A stretch of DNA of 57,753 nt, taken from the NCBI GenBank assembly GCA_013792075.1, contig VMSR01000215.1, positions 1 to 57,753 of the forward strand, given 5' to 3'. Positions 2,741-29,547 of the stretch are shown in pieces (the first letter of the stretch is position 1; the number at the start of each line of letters is the position of its first letter). The translations under genes and the position numbers were made by a program. A model generated the notes under the pieces. It did no database searches. It saw only the letters and a list, made by a program, of their open reading frames with translations, and was not told where the DNA came from. This DNA is from Desulfobacula sp. GTDB lineage: Bacteria; Desulfobacterota; Desulfobacteria; Desulfobacterales; Desulfobacteraceae.

Positions 2741-2798
2741 ATTTTCTTCCTCCTTCTTTGAGGATTTAGTGTATTATCAGTTTTGTTCAACAATCCCA

Positions 2799-4820: not shown

Positions 4821-4891
4821 TAGAGGTTCCTCCTCTTGATTATTATATAAAGAACTGCAGCAACATGTTGGCGTTGCGCAATTTGTTTTAA

Positions 4892-6454: not shown

Positions 6455-6943
6455 TTTTACCTCCTAAGATTTAAAGATAGTTATGAGTTGGGGGGGGTTA
6501 AGATTAAATAGACATGATGTTATCAGAAGAGAGCAAATAGAAATGGAAACGAATAAATCAAACGTTGATAAAACGGTTTTGATGCTTGTTTCCATATATT
6601 TACCCTATATTATAGGTTGACAATTTGATAACAGCATATGATTTATAATTTGTATGGGTGTTTGTCAATAGATGAGTGCATTTATTGAAACAGCTCTGGA
6701 AATGCTTGAACAGCCGTAGTATCAAGGGTTATTCCGGTAGCGGAATGATGTTGCGGCCCATTGAATTTGATTTAGTTTATAAATCCAAATCCTGGTAACG
6801 AAAAAAAGTTGATTTTTTATATTTATTTAGATAGGTAGGATATTCAGTTAGTCTGTAAAAGACCAAAAAGGGTAGACTTGGTTTCATAATACTTTTTATC
6901 ACAGGCTCGTTCCTAAGAGCCCAAATCAATAAAGGAGTAAACC
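6455..6943. other. Divergent intergenic region between acsD and fhs, no gene seen
   Basis: These 489 bases separate the CODH/ACS operon (minus) from fhs-folD (plus) and must carry both promoters. The region is clearly more AT-rich than its flanks and has no credible open frame. It contains a long imperfect dyad at 6543-6595, a small hairpin at 6731-6746 (ATTCCG, loop GTAG, CGGAAT) and another at 6904-6921 just before the fhs ribosome site. A perfect TTGACA occurs at 6617-6622, but the only good -10 hexamer (TATAAT, 6644-6649) is 21 bases further on, so I do not call a sigma-70 promoter. No riboswitch was recognised. Confidence 0.6.
6543..6595. repeat. Long imperfect dyad (possible operator) between acsD and fhs
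   Basis: ATGGAAAC at 6543-6550 is the inverse of GTTTCCAT at 6588-6595. Inside these arms, ATCAAA (6557-6562) is the inverse of TTTGAT (6578-6583). The centre also contains AACGTT and AAAACGGTTTT. The nested symmetry lies about 90 bases upstream of the acsD start. It could be a regulator-binding site coordinating the two divergent carbon-metabolism operons, or a leader hairpin of the acsD transcript. The symmetry is seen; the function is inferred. Confidence 0.4.
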
Positions 6944-8719
6944 ATGGCATTAGATCCAACAAAACACGCAGATTGGGAAATCGCAGAAGACGCAGAAAAG
7001 ACAATGCTCACCATCTATGAAATAGGTGAAAAATTGGGACTTACCAAAGAAGAGCTTCTTCCCCAAGGTCACTATATTGCGAAAATAGATTTTAGAGCAG
7101 TCCTTGAGCGGCTCAAGGACAAACCCGATGGAAAATACATTGATGTGACTGCGATTTCGCCCACTCCCCTGGGAGAAGGTAAATCCACTTCAAGTATGGG
7201 ACTTGTCCAGGGACTTGGTAAAATTGGTAAAAACGTATGTGCCGCCATTCGTCAGCCTTCCGGCGGACCCACCATGAACATTAAAGGATCTGCAGCCGGC
7301 GGCGGTCTTGCCCAGTGCATTCCTTTAACACCGTTCTCCCTGGGGTTTACCGGTGACATCAATGCCATCATGAATGCCCATAACCTTGCAATGGTTGCCT
7401 TGACCAGTCGTCTTCAGCATGAAAGAAACTATACAGACGAACAATTGGAAAGATTGTCCGGCATGAAACGCCTTGATATCGATCCCACCAACGTGGAAAT
7501 GGGATGGATCATGGATTTCTGCTGCCAGTCACTGCGGAATATCATCATTGGTATTGATGGCGTTAACGGCAAGTCCGACGGTTTCATGATGAAATCAAAA
7601 TTCGGTATTGCCGTGTCTTCGGAAGTTATGGCCATCCTGGCAATTGCAACAGACCTCAAAGACATGCGGGAAAGAATGGGCAAAATTGTGGTTGCCTATA
7701 CCAAGAAGGGAAAACCTGTTACCACGGAAGATCTCCAGGTGGCCGGTGCAATGACGGCCTGGATGGTGGGTGCCTTGAATCCCTCTCTCATGCAGACCCT
7801 TGAAGGCCAGCCTGTCATTGTCCATGCAGGTCCCTTTGCCAATATCGCCATTGGTCAGAGTTCCATCATTGCCGATAAAGTCGGTCTGAAACTTGCCGAT
7901 TACCATGTGACCGAGTCTGGATTTGGTGCGGATATCGGGTTTGAAAAATTCTGGAACCTCAAATGCCGTTACTCAGGTCTGAAACCCGATTGCGCAGTTG
8001 TGGTTGCCACCATCCGGGCCCTTAAATGCCACGGTGGCGCTCCTGTGCCCGTTCCCGGCAAGGCCATGCCTGTGGAATACAGCACTGAAAATGTAGACTG
8101 GGTGGCAAAGGGTTGCGGTAACCTCATCCATCACATCAGAAACGTCAGAAAAGCCGGTATCTCTCCTGTTGTTTGTATCAATGCTTTTTATACAGATACC
8201 GATGCCGAGATTGCAAAGGTGCGTGAGCTCTGTGAAAAAGAAGGCGCAAGGGTTGCCCTTTCCCGTCACTGGGAACAGGGAGGTGCCGGTGCCATTGAAT
8301 TTGCAGAAACCGTTGTGGCTGCCTGCGAAGAAAAATCAGAATTTAAATTTTTGTATGAACTGGATATGCCGGTTAAAGAGAGAATTGAGCTGGTTGCCAA
8401 AGAGGTATATGGTGCTGACGGTGTTGATTACTCTGCAGAAGCCAACAAGGCCCTTGCCAGGATCCAGGCCGACCCGAAACTTGCTGGTCTGGGACTTTGC
8501 ATGGTGAAAACCCATCTGTCCTTGTCTGACAACCCGGCTCTCAAGGGTGTTCCCACCGGCTGGAGACTGACCATCAGAGAAGTTCTGACTTACGGCGGCG
8601 CAGGTTTTATCGTTCCTGTGGCAGGTGCCATCAGCCTGATGCCGGGTACCAGCTCCAACCCGGCCTTCAAGCGGGTGGATGTGGATGTTGAAACCGGTAA
8701 GGTTCAGGGCGTATTCTAA
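6944..8719 (+). CDS. fhs: Formate-tetrahydrofolate ligase
   Basis: The 591-residue protein is formyl-THF synthetase, which attaches formate to tetrahydrofolate with ATP in the methyl branch of the Wood-Ljungdahl pathway and can run in reverse to make ATP. The nucleotide-binding loop [10 protein letters not shown] is at residues 73-82. Other family landmarks include [45 protein letters not shown] and GAISLMPG. It is somewhat longer than the common 556-560-residue form, mainly near the N-terminus. The start ATG is preceded by AAAGGAG 7 bases away. It is divergent from acsD and followed after 87 bases by folD. In a sulfate reducer this placement fits the C1 branch of acetyl-CoA oxidation or synthesis, not folate biosynthesis alone. 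Confidence 0.97.
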
Positions 8720-8744
8720 CCGAAGCCTTAAAGCAAATAACACC

Positions 8745-8780
8745 AAACGGTATCAGGCGCCATTTTGCCTGATACCGTTT
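8745..8780 (+). terminator. Perfect 14-bp hairpin between fhs and folD
   Basis: AAACGGTATCAGGC at 8745-8758 pairs exactly with GCCTGATACCGTTT at 8767-8780 around an 8-base loop. No T-run follows (next bases ATTGACAG), so it may act as a weak terminator, a partial attenuator or an mRNA 3'-end stabiliser that would favour fhs over folD. It begins 26 bases after the fhs stop codon and ends 26 bases before the folD start. Confidence 0.6.
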
Positions 8781-8806
8781 ATTGACAGCCATCAGGAGAA
8801 AAAAGT

Positions 8807-9697
8807 ATGACTGCAGAAATTATCAGCGGTACCGAAATAAGAAAGGCGATCCTCGCAGAGGTCAAAGCCGAAGTTGACCAGATGAGAGAAAAGCACGGCA
8901 AGGTGCCGGGCCTTGTGACCATTCTGGTGGGATCAAGCCCCGCTTCCATCAGCTATGTTACCTTAAAAGTTAAAACAGCCATCAGCCTTGGCTTCCACGA
9001 AATTCAGGATGACCAGCCTGACGACATTTCAGAAGCAGACCTGCTTGCCTTGATTGACAAGTATAACAACGACCCGGATATCCATGGTATCCTGGTTCAG
9101 CTGCCCCTGCCCAAACACATTGATGACAAAAAGGTCCTCAATGCCATCAATCCTGACAAAGATGTGGATGCATTCCATCCGGTCAATGTGGGGAGGCTCA
9201 TGATCGGCGGCGATGAAGTGAAATTTCTTCCCTGTACCCCTGCGGGTATCCAGGAGATGATTGTCCGGTCAGGTACGGAAACTTCCGGCGCCGAAGTGGT
9301 TGTGGTGGGCAGATCCAATATTGTCGGCAAGCCCATTGCAATGATGATGGCCCAGAAGGGTGTGGGTGCCAATGCCACAGTGACCATCGTCCATACCCGG
9401 ACCAAGGATCTTGCCGCCCATTGCAAGCGGGCCGATATCCTCATTGTGGCCGCAGGTGTGCCGGACCTGGTGAAACCCGAATGGATCAAACCCGGCTCCA
9501 CCGTTATTGATGTGGGCGTAAACCGGGTGGGCATGAATGAAAAAACCGGAAAAGCGATCCTCAAGGGGGATGTTGACTATGAGGCGGCCAAAGAGATTGC
9601 CGGCAAGATTACGCCTGTTCCGGGCGGGGTCGGACCCATGACCATTGCCATGCTCATGAAAAACACCCTTAGATCCGCTCAATTGGCTCTCGGATAA
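8807..9697 (+). CDS. folD: Bifunctional methylene-THF dehydrogenase / methenyl-THF cyclohydrolase
   Basis: The 296-residue protein is FolD, which performs the two middle steps of the methyl branch, methenyl-THF hydrolysis and methylene-THF oxidation with NAD(P). The catalytic SYVTLKVK segment contains the Tyr and Lys pair of the active site. Further motifs are QLPLPKHID, DKDVDAFHP, PCTPAGI, the Rossmann segment VVVGRSNIVGKPIA and the signature PVPGGVGPMTIAML. The length is typical. The start ATG follows an AGGAG site at 8793-8797. It follows fhs on the same strand, consistent with a two-gene C1 operon that complements the divergent CODH/ACS genes, and is followed by a rho-independent terminator. 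Confidence 0.97.
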   Translation: MTAEIISGTEIRKAILAEVKAEVDQMREKHGKVPGLVTILVGSSPASISYVTLKVKTAISLGFHEIQDDQPDDISEADLLALIDKYNNDPDIHGILVQLPLPKHIDDKKVLNAINPDKDVDAFHPVNVGRLMIGGDEVKFLPCTPAGIQEMIVRSGTETSGAEVVVVGRSNIVGKPIAMMMAQKGVGANATVTIVHTRTKDLAAHCKRADILIVAAGVPDLVKPEWIKPGSTVIDVGVNRVGMNEKTGKAILKGDVDYEAAKEIAGKITPVPGGVGPMTIAMLMKNTLRSAQLALG

Positions 9698-17424: not shown

Positions 17425-17766
17425 CTATCTGGGCGACCAGAGAACCATTCTCGGCTTTTGTTCAAGTTTTTTGGCAAGCTCCTGAAAGCTGCCGTATGTC
17501 AGACAATTTGCCATGCAATGCTTGACACAGGTTGGATCGAGTCCTTCCCGGGTCCGTTTGGAGCACAAAACACAAAGCTCGGTGGGGAAGGGCAGAAATG
17601 TCAGATACGCTTTGCCCTTGGGCAAATCCTGTACAATTTCCATTATCTTTATACCGCTTAACGGGGCTTCCCAGCCATGTTCCTGGCAACAGGCAACGGT
17701 GCAGGCAAAGCATCCCGTACAATACTCATAATCGATGAGAAGTCCGTTCTTGCTGGATTTAGACAT
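17425..17766 (-). CDS. Small ferredoxin-type electron-transfer subunit of the adjacent molybdoenzyme
   Basis: The 113-residue protein carries two cysteine sets. One is CTGCFACTVAC near residue 16. The other starts at CVLC and continues, after an 11-residue spacing, with CVKHC and then ANC. They resemble the [4Fe-4S] sites of DMSO-reductase-family beta subunits but in a truncated, two-cluster protein. The start at ATG 17766 is chosen because GGAGGT precedes it and because it overlaps the stop of the molybdoenzyme gene by 8 bases, showing translational coupling. An upstream frame extension to 17823 would run into that gene and has no ribosome site. It most likely passes electrons to or from the molybdoenzyme. 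Its partner is unknown. Confidence 0.8.
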   Translation of the reverse strand: MSKSSKNGLLIDYEYCTGCFACTVACCQEHGWEAPLSGIKIMEIVQDLPKGKAYLTFLPFPTELCVLCSKRTREGLDPTCVKHCMANCLTYGSFQELAKKLEQKPRMVLWSPR

Positions 17767-20200
17767 TCTTGACCTCCACACTTTCTTTGCGGATACTGCA
17801 GAGCAGATGTTTAATGGGGGCACCCAGGCCGTCCTCTCCCTGTTCCCCCATGGGAATCAGCATGTTGATATTGGATTCAAAGGTGTGAAACAAGGGGTCC
17901 TCTTTCTTCTCCGGAAACCACCAGCCATGGGCGGCCATGACCATCCAGGGCGGAACAATTTTTGTCACCTTGGCCTTGAACCGGGCCTTTCCCATCCAGT
18001 TTTCAAGAACCACCCATTCTCCGTTGGAGATGGCGTAAAGCGTTGCCGTATCCGGGTGAATTTCCACAACCGGGTCGGGGTCAAGGGCTCTCAGCCACGG
18101 GATATTGCGATGCTCTGCGTGAAAGAATGCAGGGGACCTTCTGCCGGTACTCAAGATCAAAGGATAGTCTTTGAAAAGGTCCGGCCGTGAAACGGGTGTA
18201 AAGGGCGGTTCCTTAAAATAAGGGGTGGCCCTGAGATTCCATTCCTCCCTTAAAGTAGCATACAATTCGAATTTTCCCGACGGGGTGGCAAACCCGGGTT
18301 TTTTGTCTGATCTCAACAATCCCTTTTCATGCCGCCGATAGGGCCGGGACGCGCTATTTTCCGGTGGAAGGGCCCATCCTTTTTCAGAAAGCGTTTTAAA
18401 ATTCATTCCGGACGGTTTGAGAATTTCATCAAAGAGCGCATGGATGGTATCCCACTTAAAATCCGGATCAAATCGCTTGGACAATTCAAAATTGATCTCT
18501 ACATCCGGCCGGCACCCCTCCACGGTCATGGCCTTGTTAATGGTCTGCAAGGGCACCCACCAGGACCTTACCCCGTCTTTTTCAAGAAAGGTGGCAGCTG
18601 GCAGGATAATATCGGCATACCGCAGGGATGGGGTCATGAACAGGTCCACACCGACAATGAAATCCAGTTTTTCAAAGGCTTTCTGCCATTGTTTCGGATC
18701 AAGGCCGATGCCGGATAGCGGATTGCAGGTCTGCATCCAGAGCCCCTTAACAGGGTAGGGTTTTTCACTGAAAATCTGTTCCATGACCTTGTCGGTCTGG
18801 CAGCGCCAGATAAACTTATTGAACGGGCCGTAGGCATCCTTACCGATTCGGGGGATGTCCTGATCCTGATCCTTGAGTTTGATGACGCCTTCGGCACCGG
18901 GAAGGGCATAGGCCACGGCATTAAATGCGGACCGGGTAAAAACATTGCCGCCCGGTACATCCAGATTGCCGGTCAAGGCCCACAGGGCGGCAATGGCATG
19001 GCACAAGGGCGTTATTTCCGGGGTCATGTCGATGGGCACGCCCCAGTGTATGGCAGCAGGCTTTGCCTTTGCATAAAACCGGGCCGCCTTTTGAATCTTC
19101 AGGGCAGGAACAAATGTGATTTCTTCGACTTTTTCAGGTGTATAGGGGGCGCAGCTCTCCTTGAATTTTTCCCATACGCTGGTACAGGTAATTTGTGTGC
19201 CGTCTAAAAGTGTAATATCAAAAATACCGGTAAGTGCAGGAGTGGCAGACGCTTTGCCATAGGCCTGTTCAAGGGTATTCCAGATAACCGGTGTATTTGA
19301 ATCTGTGTCAAACACAACAAAATTTTGATCTGATCCGGTCTGAAAAATATCCGATTCCCGCAAGAGTTTGCCTGTGTCATTTCGGACAAGCCTTGGGGCA
19401 TCGGTCCAGGTTTCAAGAAAGCTCGCATCGTAGAGTTCTTCTTTAATAATGACCTGTAAAAATCCAAGGGCAAGGGCAGCATCAGTTCCGGGCCGGATTT
19501 GGAGCCAGTGTTTTGAGCGGGAAGCAAAAAATGAAAGCCGGGGGTCAATGCAGATGATTTTTGTTCCTTTTTTCATCAGATCGATGATCCAGTGCCCAAA
19601 CAGGTTGTCCGGGCAGGTGGCGGAGATATTATACCCCCAGATGATCATGCATTCGGGTACCTTGTACTCGGGGTTGTCATACCGGCCCGGCAGCCACTGG
19701 GCCGCATCAAACACACAATAATCTCCCTGGACCGTATCCAGGGCAGCAATCCTCGGGCTGTAGCAGGCATTTCCGCTCAGGGCAAACATGACATTGGGGC
19801 TGCCAAAGGCATAGGCCAGCATACAGATCCAGGGACCGATATCCCGGCCTGTTCCCATTGAAAATATCATGCTTTCAGGCCCGAATTCATCCCGGATGCC
19901 TTTCATCCGCTCTTCAATGATATCAAAGGCCTCTTCCCAGGTGATTTCCTCAAATTGGTCCTCTCCCCGTTTGCCCACCCGTTTCAGGGGGGACCTTAAA
20001 CGGTCATGGTGGTCGATATACTGGGTCATGGCAAGGGCTCTGGTGCAGAGGCGGCCCTGGTTCCAGGGATGATCCGGGTCACCTTCCAGTTTGACCAGCT
20101 TGTTGTCCTTGATGTGGGCCAGCACGCCACACCCCCCGTGACATCCCGGCCCTGCTGACCAGGTGGTGGTTCTAACTATTTTTGTTTTGGTTTTTTCCAT
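17759..20200 (-). CDS. Molybdopterin-dependent oxidoreductase (DMSO reductase superfamily), substrate unknown
   Basis: The 813-residue protein is a bis-MGD molybdenum or tungsten enzyme. The N-terminal cluster region has C20 and C24 (CHGGC) and C52 (GRLC), followed by PLKRVGKRGE and the ITWEEAFDII block typical of the superfamily. The likely metal ligand is C146 in LSGNACYSPR. The C-terminal cofactor-binding domain (about 690-800) contains LILSTGRRSPAFFHAEHRN and GEWVVLENWMG. There is no twin-arginine signal, so it should be cytoplasmic. A fourth cluster cysteine is not at its usual CxxC position (residue 17 is Gly). It forms an operon with the upstream IclR gene (25-base gap) and the downstream ferredoxin. 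The substrate cannot be named from sequence. Confidence 0.85.
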   Translation of the reverse strand: MEKTKTKIVRTTTWSAGPGCHGGCGVLAHIKDNKLVKLEGDPDHPWNQGRLCTRALAMTQYIDHHDRLRSPLKRVGKRGEDQFEEITWEEAFDIIEERMKGIRDEFGPESMIFSMGTGRDIGPWICMLAYAFGSPNVMFALSGNACYSPRIAALDTVQGDYCVFDAAQWLPGRYDNPEYKVPECMIIWGYNISATCPDNLFGHWIIDLMKKGTKIICIDPRLSFFASRSKHWLQIRPGTDAALALGFLQVIIKEELYDASFLETWTDAPRLVRNDTGKLLRESDIFQTGSDQNFVVFDTDSNTPVIWNTLEQAYGKASATPALTGIFDITLLDGTQITCTSVWEKFKESCAPYTPEKVEEITFVPALKIQKAARFYAKAKPAAIHWGVPIDMTPEITPLCHAIAALWALTGNLDVPGGNVFTRSAFNAVAYALPGAEGVIKLKDQDQDIPRIGKDAYGPFNKFIWRCQTDKVMEQIFSEKPYPVKGLWMQTCNPLSGIGLDPKQWQKAFEKLDFIVGVDLFMTPSLRYADIILPAATFLEKDGVRSWWVPLQTINKAMTVEGCRPDVEINFELSKRFDPDFKWDTIHALFDEILKPSGMNFKTLSEKGWALPPENSASRPYRRHEKGLLRSDKKPGFATPSGKFELYATLREEWNLRATPYFKEPPFTPVSRPDLFKDYPLILSTGRRSPAFFHAEHRNIPWLRALDPDPVVEIHPDTATLYAISNGEWVVLENWMGKARFKAKVTKIVPPWMVMAAHGWWFPEKKEDPLFHTFESNINMLIPMGEQGEDGLGAPIKHLLCSIRKESVEVKNV

Positions 20201-20225
20201 TTAAAGGCCTGTTTTGTAAGGTGTA

Positions 20226-21002
20226 TTATAATTGTGCGCCCGCAAGCCTGGAAATCATCCGGGCAACGGCTGCAGTCTTCTCCCCAAATTGTTCAAATTT
20301 ATCTTCGGTAAAGGTTCCCACCAGTACAATACCGGCTGCCACTGTAGTGTTGTGATCAAATACCGGCGCGCTGACAGCGGTAATTCCCGGTGTGATCTCA
20401 CCATTGTCAACGGAATAGCCATGTTGACGGCAGAAGATCAACTCTTGTTCAAGTTTTTCCCGGTTAAAGGAATCAATGTCTCCGTGAAAAAAGAGCCGGC
20501 CTGCGTCCAAAATCCGTTGCTGGTCTTTTTTGTCCAAAAAAGAAAAAATCGCCTTTCCATGGGAGCCGTGGGTAATGTGCAGGGACTGATATTGCCGGAT
20601 CGTGATGGAAAGTGTTTCGGTTCCATCATATTTGGCAGCAATATAAAACTGATCGTTGCAGATAATACCAAGCAGGGCGCTGGTTTTGGTTTGATTGGCC
20701 AAATGCTGAAGAGACTCTTTTGCAAGGGCGGAAATATCCAGTTTTTCCTTGGCCTTTTGTGCCAGGGGCAGGAGGGCCGGACCCAGGGAATAGGTTTTGG
20801 TTTTGGCGTCTTTGACGATCAAATCATATTGGGCAAGGGCATTTAAGATAGAGTATCCCTTGCTTTTGTGGATTCCGATTTCATTGCAGATGGCTGTCAG
20901 TCCCATTTCATTGTCGCGGTTTTTCCCAAGGCTGAGAAGGAGTTGGGCAGCCTGTTCCACAGCTGGAGAAAAGGGATTGTAAACAGATTTTTTCTTTTCC
21001 AT
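20226..21002 (-). CDS. IclR family transcriptional regulator
   Basis: The 258-residue protein has an N-terminal winged helix (VEQAAQLLLSLGKNRDNEMGLTAICNEIGIHKSKGYSILNAL) and the IclR effector domain with GSHGKAIFSFL and GYSVDNGEITPGITAVSAPVF. The frame is open to an ATG at 21056, but a near-consensus promoter abuts that codon, so the message should start downstream of it. I therefore choose the ATG at 21002 (MEKKKSVYNPF); its ribosome site is weak. It is the first gene of the unit with the molybdoenzyme and ferredoxin and probably controls that unit in response to a small organic acid or aromatic ligand, as IclR proteins usually do. The ligand is unknown. Confidence 0.88.
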   Translation of the reverse strand: MEKKKSVYNPFSPAVEQAAQLLLSLGKNRDNEMGLTAICNEIGIHKSKGYSILNALAQYDLIVKDAKTKTYSLGPALLPLAQKAKEKLDISALAKESLQHLANQTKTSALLGIICNDQFYIAAKYDGTETLSITIRQYQSLHITHGSHGKAIFSFLDKKDQQRILDAGRLFFHGDIDSFNREKLEQELIFCRQHGYSVDNGEITPGITAVSAPVFDHNTTVAAGIVLVGTFTEDKFEQFGEKTAAVARMISRLAGAQL

Positions 21003-21056
21003 ATGTCTGGCCCGCCACTTTTCAACAATTTCTGTATACAGAACAAGGTTCTGCAT

Positions 21057-21085
21057 ATTAAATCAAATGAAAAATTGTCTGTCAA
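21057..21085 (-). promoter_or_regulatory. Sigma-70-type promoter of the IclR-molybdoenzyme-ferredoxin unit
   Basis: Read on the minus strand, TTGACA (21085-21080) is followed after exactly 17 bases by TTTAAT (21062-21057). This is a perfect -35 box with a good -10 box at ideal spacing. Transcription should start near 21050, inside the region between the two possible IclR start codons. The promoter lies directly downstream of the fdhA terminator. Confidence 0.7.
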
Positions 21086-21086
21086 G

Positions 21087-21121
21087 AAAAAAGCTCCCTG
21101 GTTTTTGACCAGGGAGCTTTT
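21087..21121 (-). terminator. Rho-independent terminator after fdhA
   Basis: AAAGCTCCCTGGT (21090-21102) pairs perfectly with ACCAGGGAGCTTT (21108-21120) around a 5-base loop. On the minus strand the stem ends in a run of six T residues. It starts about 40 bases after the fdhA stop and isolates fdhA from the IclR unit. Confidence 0.88.
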
Positions 21122-21161
21122 CCAGTATGAATCAGGATCTTCGGATTGGTATGGGGTTTTG

Positions 21162-23930
21162 TCAGGCAGAAGCCGGTGCAATATGGATGGCGCAGACCTT
21201 GAATTCGGGTATTTTGGCGGTGGGGTCAAGCTTCCCATTGGTGAGTACATTGGCAGCAGCCTTGGCAAAATGGAAGGGGATAAAAACCGTGCCTTCCACA
21301 GCCTTGGAGGAGACCTTGAGTTTTGCCGTGATTTTTCCCCTTCGGGAGGAAACATCCACCATGGCACCGCTGTCAAGGCCCAGTTTTTGAACATCCTTGT
21401 CAGAAATTTCCACGAAACACTCGGGGGAAAGGCGGTTGAGCCCATCGGTCCGCATGGTCATGGTACCGGTATGGTAGTGGTATAAGACCCTTCCTGTGGT
21501 AAGAATATAGGGATATTCCTCGTCGGTTTGTTCGGCCGGGGGCGTGTGTTCAATGGCATGGAAAAGTCCTTTTCCCCTTGTGAACTGTGCCGTATGCAGG
21601 ATGGGTGTCCCTGCGTGGTCTTCACTGGGACATGGCCAGTGAATGCCGATTTGGTCGATTCTCTCCCAGGTGATGCCTTTGTAGGAAGGGGTTAGGTCGG
21701 CAATTTCCTTGAAAATTTCATGGCTGTTTTCATAGGTCATTTCATAGCCCATCCGGGTGGCAATCTCACAAATTATTTCCCAGTCCCTACGGGCTTCTCC
21801 AGGTGCATCCACAGCTTTTCTCACCCGTTGGACCCTGCGTTCCGAGTTGGTAAAGGTACCGTTTTTTTCTGCAAAGCAGAAGGAAGGCAATACCACATCC
21901 GCCATCCGGGTGGTCTCGGTTTCAAAAATATCCTGAACCACGAGAAACTCCAGATTGCCAAGGGCTTTTCTGGCATGGTTCAGGTCCGGATCCGATACCA
22001 TGGGGTTTTCTCCAATGATAAATAAGGATTTAAATTCGCCTTCATAGGCTTTCTGGACCATTTCCGTTGCCACAAGCCCCGGAGTGGGGGAAAGGTCCGT
22101 GACATTCCAGGCCCGTTCAAATTTAATCCTGGCCTCTTCATTGCCCACCGGCAGGTAGGCCGTGAACACATTGGGCAGGCCGCCCATGTCACAGGCGCCC
22201 TGGACATTGTTCTGGCCCCGCAGGGGATTGACGCCCCCACCGGGTTTGCCCAGGTGGCCGCAGAGCAGGGATAGGTTTGCCAGGGATTTTACATTGTCCG
22301 TGCCGCAGGTGTGCTGGGTAATGCCCATGCAATAGAGGATTGTGGCCGCAGGGGCATTCGCAAATTGTCTGGCCACTTCAATGAGATCCTCTTGTTTGAT
22401 GCCGGTGATCGCTTCAACATAGGCGGGCGTATATTTTTCAACGGTCTCTTTCAGGGCATCAAAGTTTTCGGTTCGTTGCGCAATGAAGTTTTTATCATGG
22501 AGATCTTCTTGGATGATCACATGCATCATGCCGTTGATCCAGGCAATGTCGGTACCGGGAAAAGGCCTGAGCCAGTTATCGGCATGGTCTGCCAGTTTGA
22601 CCCGTCTGGGATCGATGAGATAGAGTTTTTTGCCCTTCAGGGCCGCTCTTTTGACAAAACTGGACAAAACCGGGTGGTTTTCCGTGGTATTGGACCCTGT
22701 GACAAGGATCATGTCGCTTGTTTCAATATCGGCGATGGTGTTTGTCATGGCACCACTTCCGAATGCTGCAGCCAGACCGGCTACGGTGGAGCTGTGTCAG
22801 AGTCGGGCACAATGATCTATATTGTTTGTTTTCAATACAGCCCGGGTAAATTTTTGTGCGATATAATTGTCTTCGTTGGTCACCCGGGCAGAGGTGAGAA
22901 CCCCCAGGGCATCGGAGCCGAATTCATCCTTTATGGCGGTGAACTTTTCGGCCACAAGGGCCAGAGCTTCATCCCAGGATGCCTGGACCTGCTTTCCTTC
23001 CTTTTTAATGAGGGGAAGGGTGAGGCGGTCGGAAGAACTGACAAAATCAAATCCAAAGCGGCCCTTGACGCAGAGGCTTGCATTGTTGGGGGGTAAATTG
23101 ACATCCGCCCCGTCAATTTTTACAATCTGGTTATCCTGGACAAACAGATCCATCTGGCATCCCACGCCGCAAAAAGAACAGGTGGTCCTGACGGTATGGG
23201 TATCCTTAAATCGGTCATCCCGGAAGGCCCTGTCCGGTATCAATGCCCCCACCGGGCAGACCTGAAGACATTCTCCGCAGAAAACGCAATCCGAATCTTT
23301 CAGATGGGCATCATTTTTGGCAATGATTTTAAGGTCCTTGTCGGCATATCCAAATTGGATGGCATTGTTTACCTGGATTTCACAACAGGCTTTCACGCAC
23401 CGGCCACAAAGGATACACCGGGAAAAATCCCGGATAATGAAAGGGTTGGCCCTTTCTGTTTCATATTGGCATTCATTCAGGGGCATGCCCTTTGTTTTGA
23501 CCTGATATCGGTAGGCAAGATCCTGGAGTTCGCAATCTCCCCAGACAGGGCAGAGGTCATTTTTTTGGTCATCCTTTAATACGCCCAGCTGGAAAGAGGT
23601 CCAGTCAATGGTATCAAAATCACGAATGGCACAATTATGGTTTCCCGATGCCAGCATGCGGCTGATATTTTCCCTGCGGGCATTTACGACTCTCGGAGAT
23701 TCTGATGAGACAACCATGCCAATGGCAGCTTTTGTCGCACAGGACTCCACAAGGTCTTTGCTTCCCTTTATTTCAACAAGACAGACTTTGCAGGTATTGG
23801 TTGGGATGGTGTTTTTCAAATGGCAGAGGGTCGGAATATCGATTCTATTCCGCTGGGCTATGTCAAGAATTGTTTCACCAGGTTCAAAGGCCAGACTATT
23901 TTCATTTATTGTTATAATATGGTCTTCCAT
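21162..23930 (-). CDS. fdhA: Selenocysteine-containing formate dehydrogenase, catalytic subunit
   Basis: Two frames separated by one TGA form a single 922-residue enzyme with selenocysteine at residue 378. The sequence reads DHCARL-Sec-HSSTVAGL, the active-site signature of formate dehydrogenases, and stays in frame across the codon. A SECIS hairpin follows. Domains in order are an N-terminal [2Fe-2S] ferredoxin (C36, C47, C50, C64), a His/Cys cluster region (H98, C100, C127, C133), two [4Fe-4S] sites (CILCGRCVKAC, CVFCGECLQVC), the molybdopterin-domain cluster (CSFCGVGC, SLCVKG) and the cofactor-binding domains ending near the C-terminus. AAGGA precedes the ATG at 23930. No signal peptide is present and no NADH-binding subunit is adjacent. 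It is divergent from the RnfB/GltD fusion, its likely redox partner. Confidence 0.93.
22768..22799 (-). promoter_or_regulatory. UGA-Sec codon and bacterial SECIS hairpin in fdhA
   Basis: On the minus strand the TGA codon occupies 22799-22797. Twelve bases later GUAGCC (22784-22779) pairs with GGCUGC (22773-22768) around the loop GGUCU (22778-22774). E. coli fdhF has the same GGUCU apical loop at the same distance of 18 bases from UGA, where SelB binds. Sequence and spacing are seen directly; SelB recognition is inferred from that match. Confidence 0.85.
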
Positions 23931-23980
23931 GGTTTTTCCTTGGATTTATTTATAACATTATCACTTGTTTGTCCCGGACA

Positions 23981-24024
23981 ACGGTATTTAACTACCGTAT
24001 CACCCATATATTGTCAATGTGACA
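23981..24024. promoter_or_regulatory. Two short perfect dyads in the fdhA/RnfB-fusion divergent region
   Basis: ACGGTA-TTTAAC-TACCGT (23981-23998) and TGTCA-ATG-TGACA (24012-24024) are perfect inverted repeats between the divergent starts. The second includes a TTGACA on the minus strand, which could be the -35 box of fdhA, so a protein bound there would affect fdhA directly. They do not match the FNR-type TTGAT-N4-ATCAA box. These are operator candidates only. Confidence 0.4.
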
Positions 24025-24049
24025 GATAAAATAATTTTTATTGATATTG

Positions 24050-24079
24050 TTGACTTTTTATTTTGCTGATGGGTATACA
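24050..24079 (+). promoter_or_regulatory. Candidate promoter of the RnfB-fusion/kinase unit
   Basis: TTGACT (24050-24055) is followed after 18 bases by TATACA (24074-24079). The hexamers match 5 of 6 and 4 of 6 consensus positions. The expected start is about 55 bases before the chosen start codon at 24142. Confidence 0.4.
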
Positions 24080-24141
24080 GTAGTGGATTATTTTACGGGT
24101 GAAAAAAGGCGATAAAGTATTACATGCCACAAGGATATACT

Positions 24142-26214
24142 ATGATTCAGTCGATTATAATGATGGGAGGGTTGGGGATTGCAATCGGTACGGTTCTGGT
24201 GATTGCATCAAAAGCATTTTATGTGTATGAGGATCCAACGGTTGTTGCCATTGATGAGGTGCTTCCGGGTGCCAATTGCGGGGGGTGTGGATTTCCGGGG
24301 TGTAATGCCAATGCCCTGGCCATTGTTGATGGATTGTCCAGTGTGAATTCCTGCGTGGCGGCCGGCAGCGATGTGGCCATGGCCATTGCACAAATCATGG
24401 GTGTTTCCGTTTCCGATAAAGAGCCTGAGTTTGCAGGTCCGGGGTGTTATTATGGCACTGCCGATGCAGACTTAAATTATATCTACCGCGGGGTACAGGA
24501 TTGCCGGGCAGCGGCCATGCTCCTGGGCGGAATGAAGGTTTGCCGAATCGGATGCCTCGGGCTTGGCACCTGTGTGACCGCCTGTCAGTTTGGTGCCCTT
24601 TCCATAGGAAAAGACGGACTGCCCAAGGTGGATCAGGAAAAGTGCACCGGATGCGGCGCCTGTGAAAAAATTTGCCCGAAACATATCATCCGTCTCACCT
24701 CGGTGACCCGGAGAATCATCCGGGAGTATACAAAGGAAGAATGTGTGACTCCCTGCCAGCGGGCCTGCCCTTCGGGCATCAATATACGGGAATATGTTCG
24801 CCTGATAAAGGAAGGCGATTACCATGGATCCCTCCAGGTGATAAAAGAAAGGATGCCTTTCCCCACCGTGATCTCCCGGATCTGTCCGGCCCTGTGTGAG
24901 TTTGATTGCCGCAGGCTCCTTTCGGACGAGTCCGTGGGCATTAATAACCTGAAACGGTTTGTCTGCGATTATGAAATGAACCAGGACAAACGGATTCAGC
25001 CCTATAAGGCTCCGGCCTCTGGCAAAAAAATTGCCGTGATCGGCGGTGGCGTTGAAGGATTGTCTGCTGCTTTTTTCAGCGCCCGGCTGGGCCATGATGC
25101 CACTGTTTTTGAAACAACCGATCACCTGGGCGGTATCCTGCGCAAGGCCATTGCAAGACAGCGCCTGACAATGGATGTTCTGGACTGGGATATCCAGGGA
25201 ATTGTTGACATGGGCGTTCAAGTGAAAACCGGCCGGGAGGCGGGCAGGGATTTTACCATACCCGATTTGCTTGGCAAAGGATATGATGCGGTCTTCATCG
25301 CAACCGGCGGCTGGGATTCCCGGCTTGCACGGGGAGGCGTGGACAAGGCCGCCTCGGTATTCCCAGGGGCATATCTGCTCATCGATCTGCTCAGAAGCAG
25401 TTCCAATGAAGCCATTGTGGTAGACAGCAAGAAAAAGGTGGTGATTGCAGGCGGCGGAAGCGCTTTGCCCGATGCCGTGAAAATACTTCGCGCCAGGGGT
25501 GCCGACACGATCATTGTTATTTCCCGGAAACCGGCGGACCAGTCTTCCTTTGACCGGGAACAAATTGAAGAACTGGCCCTGCAAGGGGTAACCATTATTT
25601 ACAATACCGGTATCACGAGGGTTATGGGAAAAGATCAGGCCTTGACCGGAATTGAGTATATTGAGCTTGACACAGGCGTGAAACATGTTATGGATACAGA
25701 TTCCCTGATCATTGGTTCCGGGCGGTTTCCGGAACTGGTGTTCCGGCCTTTGGTTGATGAGACCCGGGAAGATGAAGTAGCGGAAGAGGGTGGACAACCT
25801 GGAACAAAGGGCGTTGATACCAGTATGCCCTGGGAAGGTGTTGAACTGCAGAAAAAACCAGATGCAAACAGGGAACACGGTCTATTGTCAAAACAGGATG
25901 TTATTTCTGAATACGCTTCTGCCGTTGCTGCCATTAACGGCGGCAGGCAGGCAGCCGTAGCCGTCCATCATTTGATCTACGGCATTGAATTTCAGAATCC
26001 TGTCAACATGATAACCCAGAGATCGGTTCTTCAGGATGTTCGATCCCTGGTTCAAGTAACCCCATCCCCCCGAAATATCCTTGAAATAGCAAGAACCAGA
26101 GAGGTGCGAAAAGATAAATTTTCCACCGGTTTTTCAGTGGAAACAGCCCATGGGGAGGCAAACCGTTGCCTGGGATGCGGGCTTGTCTGTTATGAAAAAT
26201 CAAAGGTGTCCTAA
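24142..26214 (+). CDS. RnfB-like ferredoxin module fused to a GltD/NfnB-like FAD-NAD(P) oxidoreductase
   Basis: One 690-residue chain joins two modules. Residues 1-25 form an N-terminal membrane anchor. Next comes an RnfB-type Fe-S domain (C46, C49, C54 in ANCGGCGFPGC, then C71) and two [4Fe-4S] ferredoxin sites (C134/C138/C144/C148 and C168/C171/C174/C178). From about residue 195 it is GltD-like: the cluster domain (CVTPCQRAC, ICPALCEFDC), the FAD fold VIGGGVEGLSAAFFSARLG and a second nucleotide fold VVIAGGGSALPDAVKILRARG near 432. A terminal CLGCGLVCYEK motif closes it. ATG 24142 is chosen for its AAGGA site at correct spacing; ATG 24124, 18 bases earlier, has none. RnfB normally passes electrons from ferredoxin and GltD/NfnB binds NAD(P)H, so ferredoxin-pyridine nucleotide exchange is inferred. 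Confidence 0.85.
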   Translation: MIQSIIMMGGLGIAIGTVLVIASKAFYVYEDPTVVAIDEVLPGANCGGCGFPGCNANALAIVDGLSSVNSCVAAGSDVAMAIAQIMGVSVSDKEPEFAGPGCYYGTADADLNYIYRGVQDCRAAAMLLGGMKVCRIGCLGLGTCVTACQFGALSIGKDGLPKVDQEKCTGCGACEKICPKHIIRLTSVTRRIIREYTKEECVTPCQRACPSGINIREYVRLIKEGDYHGSLQVIKERMPFPTVISRICPALCEFDCRRLLSDESVGINNLKRFVCDYEMNQDKRIQPYKAPASGKKIAVIGGGVEGLSAAFFSARLGHDATVFETTDHLGGILRKAIARQRLTMDVLDWDIQGIVDMGVQVKTGREAGRDFTIPDLLGKGYDAVFIATGGWDSRLARGGVDKAASVFPGAYLLIDLLRSSSNEAIVVDSKKKVVIAGGGSALPDAVKILRARGADTIIVISRKPADQSSFDREQIEELALQGVTIIYNTGITRVMGKDQALTGIEYIELDTGVKHVMDTDSLIIGSGRFPELVFRPLVDETREDEVAEEGGQPGTKGVDTSMPWEGVELQKKPDANREHGLLSKQDVISEYASAVAAINGGRQAAVAVHHLIYGIEFQNPVNMITQRSVLQDVRSLVQVTPSPRNILEIARTREVRKDKFSTGFSVETAHGEANRCLGCGLVCYEKSKVS

Positions 26215-26264
26215 AAAATGAGAAAAGGCAATCTGGCAGGTAACAATGACAATCGGGAAAGGTT

Positions 26265-28238
26265 ATGAGACCAGAAAAGATACTTGTTGTTGATGATGAA
26301 AAGCGGATCGTTGATAATATTGCACGTTGCCTGAACCGGGAAGGATTTGACGTAACAGGTGCCCACGACGGTTCAGAGGCTGTCGCATTGTTTGAGCACC
26401 AGCGGTTTGACCTGATTTTGCTGGATATCAGCATGCCCGGCATGAATGGGTATGAGGTCATGGAACACATCTTTGGTCTGGATGGGGATGTTCTTATCAT
26501 TATCATGACCGGATTTGCTTCTGTGGAATCTGCAGTAAAAGCCCTGAAAAAAGGGGCATGGGATTATTTAAAAAAACCATTTGAATATACGGATCTGATT
26601 AAAACCGTAAAAAACGCCCTGGCCCAGAGCAATCTTCTGGCAGAGAAAAAAGCGGTATCCGCACGCCTTGAAGCGTCTGAACGACAATACAAATACATGG
26701 TTAACAATTCTCCGGACCTTGTCTTTACCCTTGATACAAACGGGTGTTTTACCTTTGTGAACGATCAGTTTGAACGACTGCTGGGGTTTTCCAGAAAGGT
26801 GCTCGTGGGAAGTCTGTTTGAAGACCTGGTTCACAAGGGTGACCGGGAAAGGGTCAGGGAACTGGTTGCCTCTGGAAACTTTGTTCAGGAGGGAACCGAC
26901 GGTCATGAACTGAATTTCAGATTTAAAAGGGCCAGCCGGAATTTATCCCATTATGATCCCCATGGCGCCTTTGCACACATGGAACTAAAGGCTTCTCCCA
27001 TGTATCTGCCGGCCAGTGAGACCAGAAAAGAACGAAAAGGAGTTTATGCCGTTGCCCGGGATGTGACCGAGAGAGTCATTCTTGAGGCCCAGCTGCGCCA
27101 GGCACAGAAAATGGAGGCCATTGGAACCCTTGCCGGGGGCATAGCCCATGATTTCAACAATATCCTCATGGGGATACAAGGATATGCTTCCCTGGTGAAA
27201 TGCGGTTTTGACAGGGACAGTGAGGAGTTTAAGCGGCTGTCCAACATCGATGAATATGTTTCCAACGGAGCGGAAATGGCACGGCATCTTCTTGGCTTTG
27301 CCCAGAAAAGCTGCCATGAAGTCAGTATGATCAACCTGAACTATCTGCTCAAGATGTCTGCCAAAATGTTTGGCAGGACCAAAAAAGATATTATTATTGA
27401 TCAATATCTGGAGAAGAAACTCTGGGGTACGATTGTGGATGAGGGCCAGATCAAACAGGTATTGATGAATCTTTTTGTAAATGCCTGGCAGGCAATGTCC
27501 CAGGGGGGGAAAATTACGATCAAATCCGAGAATGTTCGAATCGATGAATCACGGATCGATGAATTTGGTTTTGAGGCCCCGGGTGCATTTGTAAAAATTA
27601 CCGTGGCCGATACGGGCATGGGCATGGACAAAGAGACCATGTCCCGGATCTTTGATCCTTTTTTTACCACAAAGGCCAGGGGGCAGGGAACAGGCCTTGG
27701 CCTTGCAACCGCCTATGGAATTATCAAAAGCCACAGGGGTGCTTTTAAGGTTGACAGCAAGCCGGGCCGGGGCAGTTCATTCATGTTTTTTCTGCCGGCC
27801 GAGGACACCCTTGTGGAGTGCGATCCCACCGTTGAACAGGACGATAAAATCATCAACGGGAAGGGGAGAATTCTTCTGGTGGATGATGAAAAAGGGGTGA
27901 TTGAGGTCTGTTTTGAGATGCTTGAAGCCCTTGGGTATGAGGTGAAAGTCGCAACCAGCGGTATGGAAGCCATTAAAATAATGGATAGGGAAGGAGATAA
28001 AATCGATCTTGTGATATTGGATATGGTCATGCCCGGAATGAACGGGTTGGAGACCTATGAGGTGATCCGGAGAATTCGGCCTGATACCCGGGTGCTTGTT
28101 TCCTCGGGCTATAGCAGAGAAGAAGACCTCAACCGGATGATGGAAAAAGGGTGCAATGATTTTATCCTCAAGCCGTTTGATGTGGCCATGCTGTCTGAAA
28201 AATTAAGGGGTGTGTTCAATCCCTTGGAAAAGGTCTGA
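26265..28238 (+). CDS. Hybrid sensor histidine kinase: REC-PAS-HisKA-HATPase-REC
   Basis: The 657-residue protein begins with a receiver domain (phospho-acceptor D54 in [13 protein letters not shown]). A short coiled segment and a PAS domain follow (about 140-265, [22 protein letters not shown]). The histidine kinase core has H295 in GGIAHDFNN, an N-box at [11 protein letters not shown] and G-boxes ADTGMGM and [17 protein letters not shown] second receiver domain (D586 in [13 protein letters not shown]) ends the chain. No membrane segment is seen, so it is probably cytoplasmic. It lies 50 bases after the RnfB-type fusion on the same strand, suggesting cotranscription and perhaps redox or energy-state sensing. 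The signal and output are unknown. Confidence 0.9.
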
Positions 28239-28268
28239 ACAAAAGGGTAGATATATCTAAAAAATATA

Positions 28269-28305
28269 AAAAGGGGCCGGGAAAAGATTTTTCCCGGCCC
28301 CTTTT
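28269..28305. terminator. Bidirectional terminator between kinase and ppaC
   Basis: A 17-bp perfect stem, AAAAGGGGCCGGGAAAA (28269-28285) with its inverse at 28289-28305, closes on a 3-base loop. Its flanks are A-rich on the left and T-rich on the right, so it can terminate the plus-strand kinase and the minus-strand pyrophosphatase alike. Confidence 0.88.
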
Positions 28306-28323
28306 GGTTTTTAGGGTATTCGT

Positions 28324-29247
28324 CTATTTGCCGAATACTTTTTCAAGAAAGGGCACGATCTCTTTTTTACGGCTCATGATGCCGGGAAGCCACGCTTTCC
28401 CGTTTGCCGGTTTCACGCCAAAAGCTTTTTCAACAACAGATTCGTCATCTGATACGATTAAAAGTTCTGTACCTTCCTTCATGATATCGGTCAGCATGAG
28501 AAATACGCTGTGGTGGCCTTTTTCTTTCTTAAGGGCGGCAATATCTTTTTCAAGGTCGGCTTTAATGCCATCCACAATGGAAAGATCTACCAGCTCAAGC
28601 TGACCCACGCCCACGCCTTTGCCGTTCATGTTGAAATCTTTGTAATCCCGGAAAACCAGTTCCCGGATGGGGGTACCCTCAACCGCTGATTTTACTTTGA
28701 ACATTTCAATGCCAAGGGCCGGCAGATCTTTTTCGCCGCAGATTTCAGACAGCTCGGCACAGACTTTTTTGTCAGAATCTGTACAGGTGGCTGATTTGAA
28801 GATAACCGTATCGGAAAGGATGGCGCAGAGCATGATACCGGCAATATCTTTCGGGATGGCAATGCCAAAATATTTATACATGGAGGCCACAACGGTGCAG
28901 GTACAGCCAACGGGCCAGATCCAGCACTCAAGGGGCTGACTGGTTGTCACATCTCCCAGTTTGTGATGGTCAACGATGCCAAGGATATTGGCTTTTCCCA
29001 GATCGTCGGGGCTCTGGCTAAGGTCTGAATGATCCACAAGGTATACATCTTTGCCGGCGTAGCTGGTAACGACCGCAGGTGCAGCCACACCATATTTTTT
29101 AAGAACAAATGTAGATTCAGGATTAAGCTCTCCCTGCATTGCAGGTGCGATATCTTCACCAAGTTTTTTCTTAAGATCCGCCAGTGCAATGGCTGCACAA
29201 ACTGAATCTGTATCTGGGTTTTTGTGACCAAATACCAAAGTTGACAT
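28324..29247 (-). CDS. ppaC: Manganese-dependent inorganic pyrophosphatase (family II, DHH)
   Basis: The 307-residue protein is a family II pyrophosphatase. It has the N-terminal metal site GHKNPDTDS, the DHH motif in GIVDHHKLGD, and the C-terminal substrate loop PGIMSRKKE. CBS domains are absent. Pyrophosphate removal pulls ATP-sulfurylase forward in sulfate activation, so a soluble pyrophosphatase is important in a sulfate reducer. The start at 29247 is chosen because AGGAGG precedes it at ideal spacing; the open frame extends 21 codons further without a ribosome site. It ends at a shared terminator and is divergent from the polyamine transporter. Confidence 0.94.
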   Translation of the reverse strand: MSTLVFGHKNPDTDSVCAAIALADLKKKLGEDIAPAMQGELNPESTFVLKKYGVAAPAVVTSYAGKDVYLVDHSDLSQSPDDLGKANILGIVDHHKLGDVTTSQPLECWIWPVGCTCTVVASMYKYFGIAIPKDIAGIMLCAILSDTVIFKSATCTDSDKKVCAELSEICGEKDLPALGIEMFKVKSAVEGTPIRELVFRDYKDFNMNGKGVGVGQLELVDLSIVDGIKADLEKDIAALKKEKGHHSVFLMLTDIMKEGTELLIVSDDESVVEKAFGVKPANGKAWLPGIMSRKKEIVPFLEKVFGK

Positions 29248-29283
29248 AAAACCTCCTAAATGTTGTTGTCGTGTTATAAATCG

Positions 29284-29308
29284 GATGATTCCACACACGG
29301 AAATCATC
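29284..29308. repeat. Dyad upstream of ppaC
   Basis: GATGATTCC (29284-29292) and GGAAATCATC (29299-29308) are inverse apart from one extra base. The dyad lies 37 bases upstream of the ppaC start, in the 300-base region divergent to the polyamine transporter. A regulatory role is possible. I found no convincing promoter for either gene in the rest of this region. Confidence 0.35.
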
Positions 29309-29547
29309 AAAAATTCCCAAACAAAATTCAGAATATCTTATAGAATTAATTGTGCAGATACTCAAGGAAAATTTTTAAATTTCAGATGACGCCCGGTATC
29401 CTTAAATTTTTTAGTTTTAGTTTTATTTGACCTTTGTTAGGGATACTTGAAAAATCTTTACACCCGTCAGGAATAGTGATAGGCAATTAATGGTGGAGCA
29501 CCTTGTCTTGAACGTCTATCCAATAAAAATAAAAATGGAGGAAAAAA

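Follow-up and report, generated by a model that had tools for sequence, protein, structure and literature searches.

An RnfB-GltD fusion protein that accompanies the formate dehydrogenase FdhA in Desulfobacteraceae and lacks the NAD(P)H-site signature

The sequence analyzed here, referred to as the window, is a stretch of 57,753 nucleotides from the genome of a Desulfobacula sp. of the family Desulfobacteraceae (GenBank assembly GCA_013792075.1, contig VMSR01000215.1; genome G000 in our set). Within it, two divergently transcribed genes encode, respectively, a fusion of an RnfB-type iron-sulfur (Fe-S) protein with a flavoprotein module of the GltD/NfnB type, and FdhA, the alpha subunit of a selenocysteine (Sec)-containing formate dehydrogenase. 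The RnfB-GltD architecture itself is already known; what is new is a separate clade of such fusions, mostly outside rnf operons, that travels with FdhA and in which the NAD(P)H signature has been lost. The parts of the two genes are as follows (papers are cited throughout by PubMed Central number, from excerpts of their text).

24142-26214, + strand: RnfB-GltD fusion (open reading frame, Pfam, NCBIfam, homologue alignment)
24145-24216, + strand: N-terminal membrane anchor helix, residues 2-25 (AlphaFold helix; clade identity of residues 1-35)
24277-24354, + strand: RnfB Fe-S domain, C46, C49, C54 and C71, ANCGGCGFPGC...C (PF04060)
24541-24675, + strand: two [4Fe-4S] ferredoxin-type sites, C134-C178 (Pfam Fer4 families)
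24742-24984, + strand: GltD/DPYD-type cluster domain Fer4_20, C201, C205, C209, C248, C252 and C256 (Pfam)
25024-25341, + strand: FAD-binding Rossmann part with intact GGGxxG; R341 is the counterpart of StnC R239 (alignments)
25414-25776, + strand: second Rossmann domain, which has lost the NAD(P)H-site signature (alignment)
26128-26199, + strand: C-terminal RCLxCGLxCY cluster motif, C676, C679 and C683 (alignments)
21162-23930, - strand: fdhA, formate dehydrogenase alpha subunit with a NuoG-like N-terminal domain (Pfam/NCBIfam); Sec codon TGA at 22797-22799

The reading frame of the fusion is intact up to the stop codon that ends at 26214 and has two possible starts, 24124 (696 amino acids) and 24142 (690 amino acids); most homologues in the alignment use the ATG at 24142, from which residues are counted here. 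Pfam and NCBIfam scans delimit an RnfB unit at approximately residues 1-192 (TIGR01944, 72.2 bits; cut-off 68.7) that contains the complete set of RnfB hallmarks, namely, the N-terminal anchor, the Fe-S domain and the two [4Fe-4S] sites. C-terminal to this unit, the matches to Fer4_20 (PF14691, 1.8e-18) and Pyr_redox_2 (PF07992, 4.7e-18) correspond to the cluster domain and the FAD-binding Rossmann fold that are the hallmarks of NfnB and GltD. The protein scores below the NCBIfam cut-offs for PRK12771 (282.3 vs 516) and gltA (182.6 vs 471.75), and likewise below those of the two AegA/YgfT equivalogs (113.9 vs 1003 and 97.3 vs 1154). Its relatives of solved structure include NfnABC chains (9n5u, 9bov), StnC (8oh5), RnfB (9eri, 7zc6) and NfnL/GltD. 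An AlphaFold model built from 43 sequences (mean pLDDT 79, pTM 0.80) contains the anchor helix, and the mean pairwise identity of the anchor region (residues 1-35) within the clade is 0.74; modelled residues 198-681 match 9bov, 9n5v, 8oh5 and 9n5u with Z scores of 22.8-24.4 at a root-mean-square deviation (rmsd) of about 14 Å, and because the whole-model rmsd in the fold searches is about 12-17 Å, the relative placement of the domains is not trusted. The initial annotation of this DNA, made from the letters alone, had described an intact, membrane-anchored fusion, and these results bear it out. Homologues found throughout the family and the class rule out an assembly artefact, and chance is not an explanation either because most genomes of the family encode full-length homologues: 81 of the 86 family genomes have a match at 1e-60 or better, and these matches fall mainly into two full-length groups, of which group 1 includes the window gene and lies mostly outside rnf operons.

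The neighbouring FdhA has a NuoG-like N-terminus with [2Fe-2S]/4Fe-4S sites, as detected in a domain scan, and a single in-frame TGA, at 22797-22799, which recurs in 59 of 61 orthologue rows, the other two having no stop. Scored separately, the two halves of FdhA that flank the TGA reach 162.0 and 647.8 against the TIGR01591 cut-off of 666.25. The gene order and the TGA agree with the earlier description of a divergent selenium FdhA without an adjacent gene for an NADH-binding partner, and no further rnf gene was found among the window genes scanned, again as first noted.

The fusion does accompany fdhA in conserved neighbourhoods. In hand-curated lists for the 86 family genomes, 61 have a group 1 fusion and 59 an FdhA orthologue (at least 67% identity); group 2 rows, lower FdhA rows and second pieces are excluded, some fusion rows are contig-end fragments, and one (G071) has three in-frame stops. 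Both genes are present in 54 genomes, the fusion alone in 7, FdhA alone in 5 and neither in 20 (Fisher test 1.5e-9, with kinship ignored). When the two share a contig, 39 of the 41 pairs are divergent and no more than 4 kb apart; for 32 of them the distance is at most 400 bp, with 174-384 bp between the matches. Both exceptions are from Desulfotignum. Twenty genomes have no FdhA row on the fusion contig, and in three of these (G084, G085, G080; loci L059, L190, L216) partial genes at contig ends preserve the divergent order.

Group 2 fusions are about 35% identical to the window protein over the full length, have the same domain order, and are encoded by the last gene of an operon that consists of an RseC-like gene, a cytochrome c3-like gene, rnfC, rnfD, rnfG, rnfE, rnfA and the fusion. 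At 24 group 2 loci, homologues of the reference rnf genes were found for rnfA (24), rnfE (23), rnfC (22), rnfD (22) and rnfG (20). A fused, large RnfB of about 700 residues has been described as a subunit of Rnf2 in Desulfobacula toluolica, Desulfococcus multivorans and D. autotrophicum (PMC5109826), and Rnf2 has been reported as core in Desulfobacteraceae (PMC11887813); group 2 is this large RnfB. The initial annotation was therefore wrong to place the RnfB and GltD/NfnB parts of Rnf in separate proteins, given that they are fused in the Rnf2 operons of this very family, and its suggestion of an unprecedented architecture was anticipated in print for Rnf2 (PMC5109826).

A midpoint-rooted tree, built by a quick method, splits 103 fusions into two clades: of the 42 rows in the first, 41 are rnf-linked, and the second, of 61 rows, encompasses the window gene, NuoEF-linked rows and, near its base, three rnf-linked rows. 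Linkage to rnf was scored by a rule that overlooked L065, where FdhA is 3.1 kb away, and L132, which is rnf-linked by tblastn. When only the RnfB part is compared, 34 chosen fusions cluster together to the exclusion of 27 plain RnfBs (99/94; recovered in 98% of bootstrap trees). Judging from these trees, the window fusion and the RnfB-GltD subunit of Rnf2 share common descent, and because there is a single fusion group and rnf-linked rows lie near the base of the second clade, there was probably one fusion event, with linkage to rnf first and departure from it later. At locus L146, an Rnf2-type rnfCDE run is preceded, at a distance of about 1 kb, by the gene for a plain RnfB (an open reading frame of 266 amino acids); in the tree of the RnfB part, L146 and L147 together branch as sister to the fusions.

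The genome from which the window derives contains other Rnf genes. An rnfCDGEAB operon, Rnf1, encodes a plain RnfB of 272 amino acids (L038), a set of Rnf2-type genes lies on a contig that breaks off inside rnfA, after 59 residues (L178), and the end of contig C25 encodes part of a fused RnfB of the Rnf2 type, namely residues 334-694, with 84% identity to group 2 (L239); by analogy with relatives, the last two contig ends would belong to one operon. The window gene is not part of an rnfCDGEAB operon, and in view of the plain RnfB of Rnf1 and the additional fused RnfB of the Rnf2 type, it is neither the RnfB of this genome nor its only RnfB. The NADH/FMN domain (PF01512, cut-off 31.2) is strong in the RnfC of Rnf1, at 170 bits; in six RnfCs whose operons encode a fused RnfB, it scores 22.3 (L040), 25.7 (L124), 33.5 (L139) and 40.8 (L116) and is unreported in L130 and L140, in broad agreement with PMC5109826.

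The anchor, the full set of RnfB cysteines and the shared origin with rnf-operon fusions are what would be expected of an exchangeable RnfB, one whose anchor docks on the RnfADE core of Rnf1 or Rnf2 such that electrons from formate drive ion pumping, and partners for such docking are at hand, as rnfD scores over the curated cut-off in 76 of the 86 family genomes and both Rnf1 and Rnf2 genes are present in the window genome. We nevertheless regard this as unlikely: the FdhA clade is not linked to rnf, Rnf1 and Rnf2 own their RnfBs, and the identity of the anchor to that of Rnf2-type RnfBs (0.49) does not exceed the identity of the soluble cluster domains (0.48-0.57).

Conservation was examined in the Rnf2-type clade (42 rows) and in the window clade, clade B (62 rows, that is, the 61 rows of the tree and L144 from Desulfatibacillum alkenivorans). 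The cysteines of the Fe-S domain are each kept in 41/41 FdhA-clade, 21/21 other clade B and 42/42 Rnf2-type fusions and in 27/27 plain RnfBs, and all 14 cysteines of the RnfB part are invariant across the 104 fusions and the 27 plain RnfBs. Within Fer4_20, C201 is retained in 62/62 rows of the window clade and 7/42 Rnf2-type rows, and the other cysteines in all fusions. Throughout the window clade, no cluster cysteine varies. The FAD glycines are kept in 42/42 and 62/62 rows, as is the arginine that matches StnC R239 and NfnB R201, a correspondence read from the alignment and the StnC paper (PMC10482914). Separately, C275 (24964-24966) is a cysteine in 40/41 FdhA-clade, 1/21 other clade B and 0/42 Rnf2-type fusions.

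The nucleotide site sets the two clades apart. The Rnf2-type clade keeps the Asn of GGGN in 42/42 rows, the Arg three residues after its Asp in 42/42, the second Arg of YRR in 41/42 and the Gln of AIGQ in 42/42, whereas the same four residues are found in 5/62, 5/62, 5/62 and 0/62 rows of the window clade. None of the 62 rows has the GltD/NfnB signature of the NAD(P)H site in full, and all 62 have an Arg in place of the AIGQ Gln, in a GRFPE-like context. Twenty further loci from other families agree: GxGN is absent from all 20 and GR(F/L/M)PE is present, with a loose AIGQ-like pattern in two and a loose YRR-like pattern in one. The second Rossmann domain and the C-terminal tail are also the least conserved regions of the FdhA-clade fusions (mean pairwise identity over 41 rows of 0.46 and 0.43, vs 0.74-0.80 in the RnfB and cluster parts); in group 2 (24 rows), the identity of the second Rossmann domain is 0.79. 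We read this pattern as loss of NAD(P)H use in the window clade with retention of FAD and the clusters.

The closest structural comparisons are with StnABC and NfnABC (8oh5, 9bov, 9n5u; PMC10482914), which have in common with the fusion the GltD module and its cluster cysteines. StnAB is HydBC-like and StnC carries the GltD module (PMC10482914); relatives of the window gene likewise follow genes for NuoE and NuoF, as in StnA-StnB. StnC, however, has a NuoG/FdhF-like domain and binds NADPH, whereas the fusion has the RnfB part instead and no NADPH signature; no NuoG/FdhF-like domain was detected in the fusion chain, and NuoEF (StnAB-like) neighbours occur only in its relatives. NfnB/NfnL of NfnAB shares the Fer4_20 clusters, the FAD fold and the flavin-site arginine, and differs by its NADPH signature and the lack of a membrane anchor, and NfnA is absent from the scanned neighbours of the fusion. 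The initial annotation had proposed a ferredoxin/NAD(P)H branch for formate, possibly bifurcating; in this scheme, FdhA and the fusion would form a formate/ferredoxin/NAD(P)H enzyme that might bifurcate electrons at the GltD flavin as in Nfn. The GltD part is indeed closest to NfnABC and StnC chains, the arginine is universally kept in the fusions, and an NADPH-linked reading is in print for a formate dehydrogenase gene, fdhF2, beside nfnB in Seep-SRB1g (PMC10553843). Given that no member of the clade has the full NAD(P)H-site signature, that GxGN is missing from the 20 further loci as well, and that StnC, with the same fold, binds NADPH yet does not bifurcate (PMC10482914), we consider an NAD(P)H branch of this kind quite improbable.

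The locus is embedded in a Wood-Ljungdahl context.

530-9694, both strands: Wood-Ljungdahl genes for ACS/CODH beta, CODH, CdhD, formate-THF ligase and FolD

The FdhA-fusion locus is about 23 kb from the CODH/ACS genes of the window, and in 18 genomes selected for distance measurement (those in which a single contig carries both the fusion and CdhC, with two contrary cases from Desulfotignum added), the separation from CdhC is 20-43 kb in 16; it is 559 kb in G062, and in G063 the two are on different contigs. Across the 86 genomes, 52 have both fusion and CdhC, 9 the fusion only, 8 CdhC only and 17 neither. In genus g4, CdhC is absent from 15/15 genomes that lack the fusion and present in 4/4 that have it. 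Most Desulfobacteraceae run the Wood-Ljungdahl pathway, and Desulfobacter uses the TCA cycle instead (PMC11887813); the g4 genomes without the fusion are presumably Desulfobacter.

On balance, we favour the reading that the fusion serves the Wood-Ljungdahl FdhA as a membrane-anchored partner in electron transfer, receiving electrons from formate and not from NAD(P)H and passing them on to ferredoxin or the membrane. The Sec-Mo/W site of FdhA would oxidize formate (or reduce CO2), and the NuoG-like domain of FdhA, with its Fe-S centres, would relay the electrons to the cluster/FAD module of the fusion. This module would no longer accept hydride from NAD(P)H and would deliver the electrons to the RnfB-type clusters and from there to ferredoxin or a membrane acceptor. 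A physical complex of FdhA with the fusion, this direction of flow and such an acceptor are what we infer; what we observe is the architecture, the association of the two genes in order and occurrence, the conservation of the clusters and the FAD motif, the signature loss and the exchange of partner genes. A NuoG-like N-terminus docks NuoF in related enzymes, and the simplest reading would be that the fusion stands in for NuoEF as the electron partner of FdhA.

Exchange of partner genes is seen in relatives that lack the fusion. We compared four such genomes of genus g5: in G031, G038 and G048 (L206, L211, L212), the order is NuoE-NuoF-FdhA, with 46-47% identity to the window FdhA, followed by an orthologue (67-69%) of the hybrid kinase that lies downstream of the window fusion, and in G050 (L213), NuoE-NuoF-FdhA is present with no kinase seen within the stretch. 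The NuoE-NuoF-FdhA operon is 25.8 kb (G038) and 25.7 kb (G050) from CdhC, a distance like that of the fusion pair in other genomes. In Desulfamplus (g3), a second, Cys-type FdhA (about 70%) adjoins HdrA-MvhD genes (L185, L186). Dehydrogenases of the FdhA-NuoE-NuoF and FdhA-HdrA-MvhD kinds in the same bacterial family have related FdhAs (46-73%) and differ in having NuoEF or HdrA-MvhD genes in place of the fusion. Locus L208 (G056) encodes HdrA-MvhD-FdhA(60%)-NuoE-NuoF in a single stretch, a formate dehydrogenase with partner genes of two kinds.

HdrA contains a bifurcating FAD without an NAD(P)H partner. By analogy, formate electrons could be split between ferredoxin and a higher-potential acceptor at the FAD of the fusion, the motif for which is kept amid Fe-S centres while the NAD(P)H signature is gone, and the HdrA-MvhD genes beside close Cys-type FdhA relatives fit such a scheme. 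The domain scan of neighbours recognized no second acceptor subunit beside the fusion, and nothing in the sequence sets the flavin potentials; we consider this very unlikely.

Several observations weigh against a formate-fed partner of FdhA. The two genes are divergent in the window and do not form one operon. The co-occurrence rests largely on a single split, since 15 of the 20 genomes with neither gene belong to genus g4. In two Desulfotignum (g9) genomes, G062 and G063, both genes are present and unlinked, and in the three Desulfotignum genomes inspected for it (L179-L181) FdhA is near NuoEF genes; four g9 genomes and G043 have FdhA without the fusion. In G049, which has the fusion, a more distant FdhA (61%) is encoded elsewhere, in an FdhA-NuoE-NuoF operon (L183). 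Finally, Rossmann strands and a helix are still predicted in the second domain, and signature loss is no proof of lost nucleotide binding.

Two further known systems invite comparison. AegA and YgfT of E. coli, like the fusion, join a ferredoxin-type N-terminus to a GltD-like module, but their N-terminus is HycB/HydN-related and that of the fusion is RnfB. To our knowledge, AegA and YgfT have no membrane anchor. NCBIfam labels them as formate-dependent uric acid utilization proteins, and FDH-H activity was not influenced by AegA (PMC6004506). In Seep-SRB1g, fdhF2 beside nfnB, read as NADPH-dependent, is a formate dehydrogenase gene adjoining a GltD/NfnB-type gene in a sulfate reducer and, judging by its description, possibly of the same architecture as the window fusion; the excerpts of PMC10553843 do not mention an RnfB part. 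Within the excerpts of open-access literature covered by our searches, we found this remark and no description of an FdhA-linked RnfB-GltD protein, so that "poorly described", as the system was first called, is a fair characterization.

Under the favoured assignment, the locus is a specific candidate for the point where the formate electrons of the Wood-Ljungdahl FdhA enter energy metabolism, which gene lists leave unsaid, and a known pump subunit appears as a module whose partner genes are exchanged. In these organisms, annotation of a gene as NfnB/GltD or RnfB is no ground for assigning NADPH activity to it. A broader conjecture, to which we give little credence, is that RnfB-GltD serves as an interchangeable membrane hub for different input modules, be it the Rnf core, NuoEF with electrons from NADH or FdhA with electrons from formate. 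The form paired with FdhA, with NAD(P)H lost, might then feed formate electrons directly to an Rnf-type membrane core as a formate-driven ion pump without free ferredoxin or NAD.

Fusions are not confined to FdhA loci, a restriction we considered and rejected. In the class search, 316 of 389 genomes have a fusion match of either group at 1e-90 or better. Outside the family, we analyzed 20 group 1-like loci, one per genome, from 16 other families (50-55% identity), picked by rank and contig span: NuoF lies upstream at 12 of them and NuoE at 11, a DRTGG gene is found at 13 and an RseC-like gene downstream at 15. FdhA adjoins the fusion in two of the 20 (L226, same strand; L228, divergent), and one locus has none of these neighbours. 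A divergent FdhA (60%) is likewise found in D. alkenivorans (L144). Outside the FdhA clade, many fusions have DRTGG-domain and RseC-like genes as neighbours (L104, L105, L108, L110, L111, L219-L238), and the RseC-like gene, shared with Rnf2 operons, is perhaps a trace of rnf origin.

In the clade B fusions of eight genomes from two other families, f33 and f58 (L241-L248; also L225, L232), the first cysteine of the RnfB Fe-S motif is replaced by an in-frame TGA (PGAN*GGCGLPGC) that is followed, in all eight copies checked, by 631-640 open codons; these copies were chosen for an internal TGA among the matches listed in the class search. The window has TGC at the equivalent site, 24277-24279. SelB is above the cut-off in six of the eight genomes and in the window genome, with weaker matches only in G333 and G337, which suggests a candidate selenocysteine as a ligand of the RnfB [4Fe-4S] cluster. 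Folding predicts hairpins in the 45 bases after the TGA, but these are similar in some Cys copies and not decisive, and the SECIS families gave no match in L241-L248 up to E = 1. The Sec proteins named in the excerpts of PMC5109826 are others, not RnfB.

The remaining features of the locus are the region between the two genes and the gene downstream of the fusion.

23931-24141, no strand assigned: divergent promoter region, with TTGACT-18-TATACA at 24050 and the palindrome TGTCAATGTGACA at 24012
26265-28238, + strand: hybrid sensor kinase, REC-PAS-HK-REC (Pfam), often conserved downstream of the fusion

In 24 aligned intergenic regions, the palindrome (24012-24024) and the promoter-like sequence (24050-24079) are partly conserved. 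A search of 24 intergenic regions for a sigma-54-like site (TGGC-N7/8-TTGC) was negative, as was an Rfam scan of 20000-29500 at the gathering cut-off. The kinase gene is downstream of the fusion in 21 of 35 group 1 loci, some of which end too soon to show it, and it stays at formate dehydrogenase loci even where NuoE-NuoF replaces the fusion. Downstream of fdhA, a second molybdopterin oxidoreductase (813 amino acids; best NCBIfam match PhsA-like, below the cut-off) and an IclR-type regulator are encoded at 17759-21056 on the - strand.

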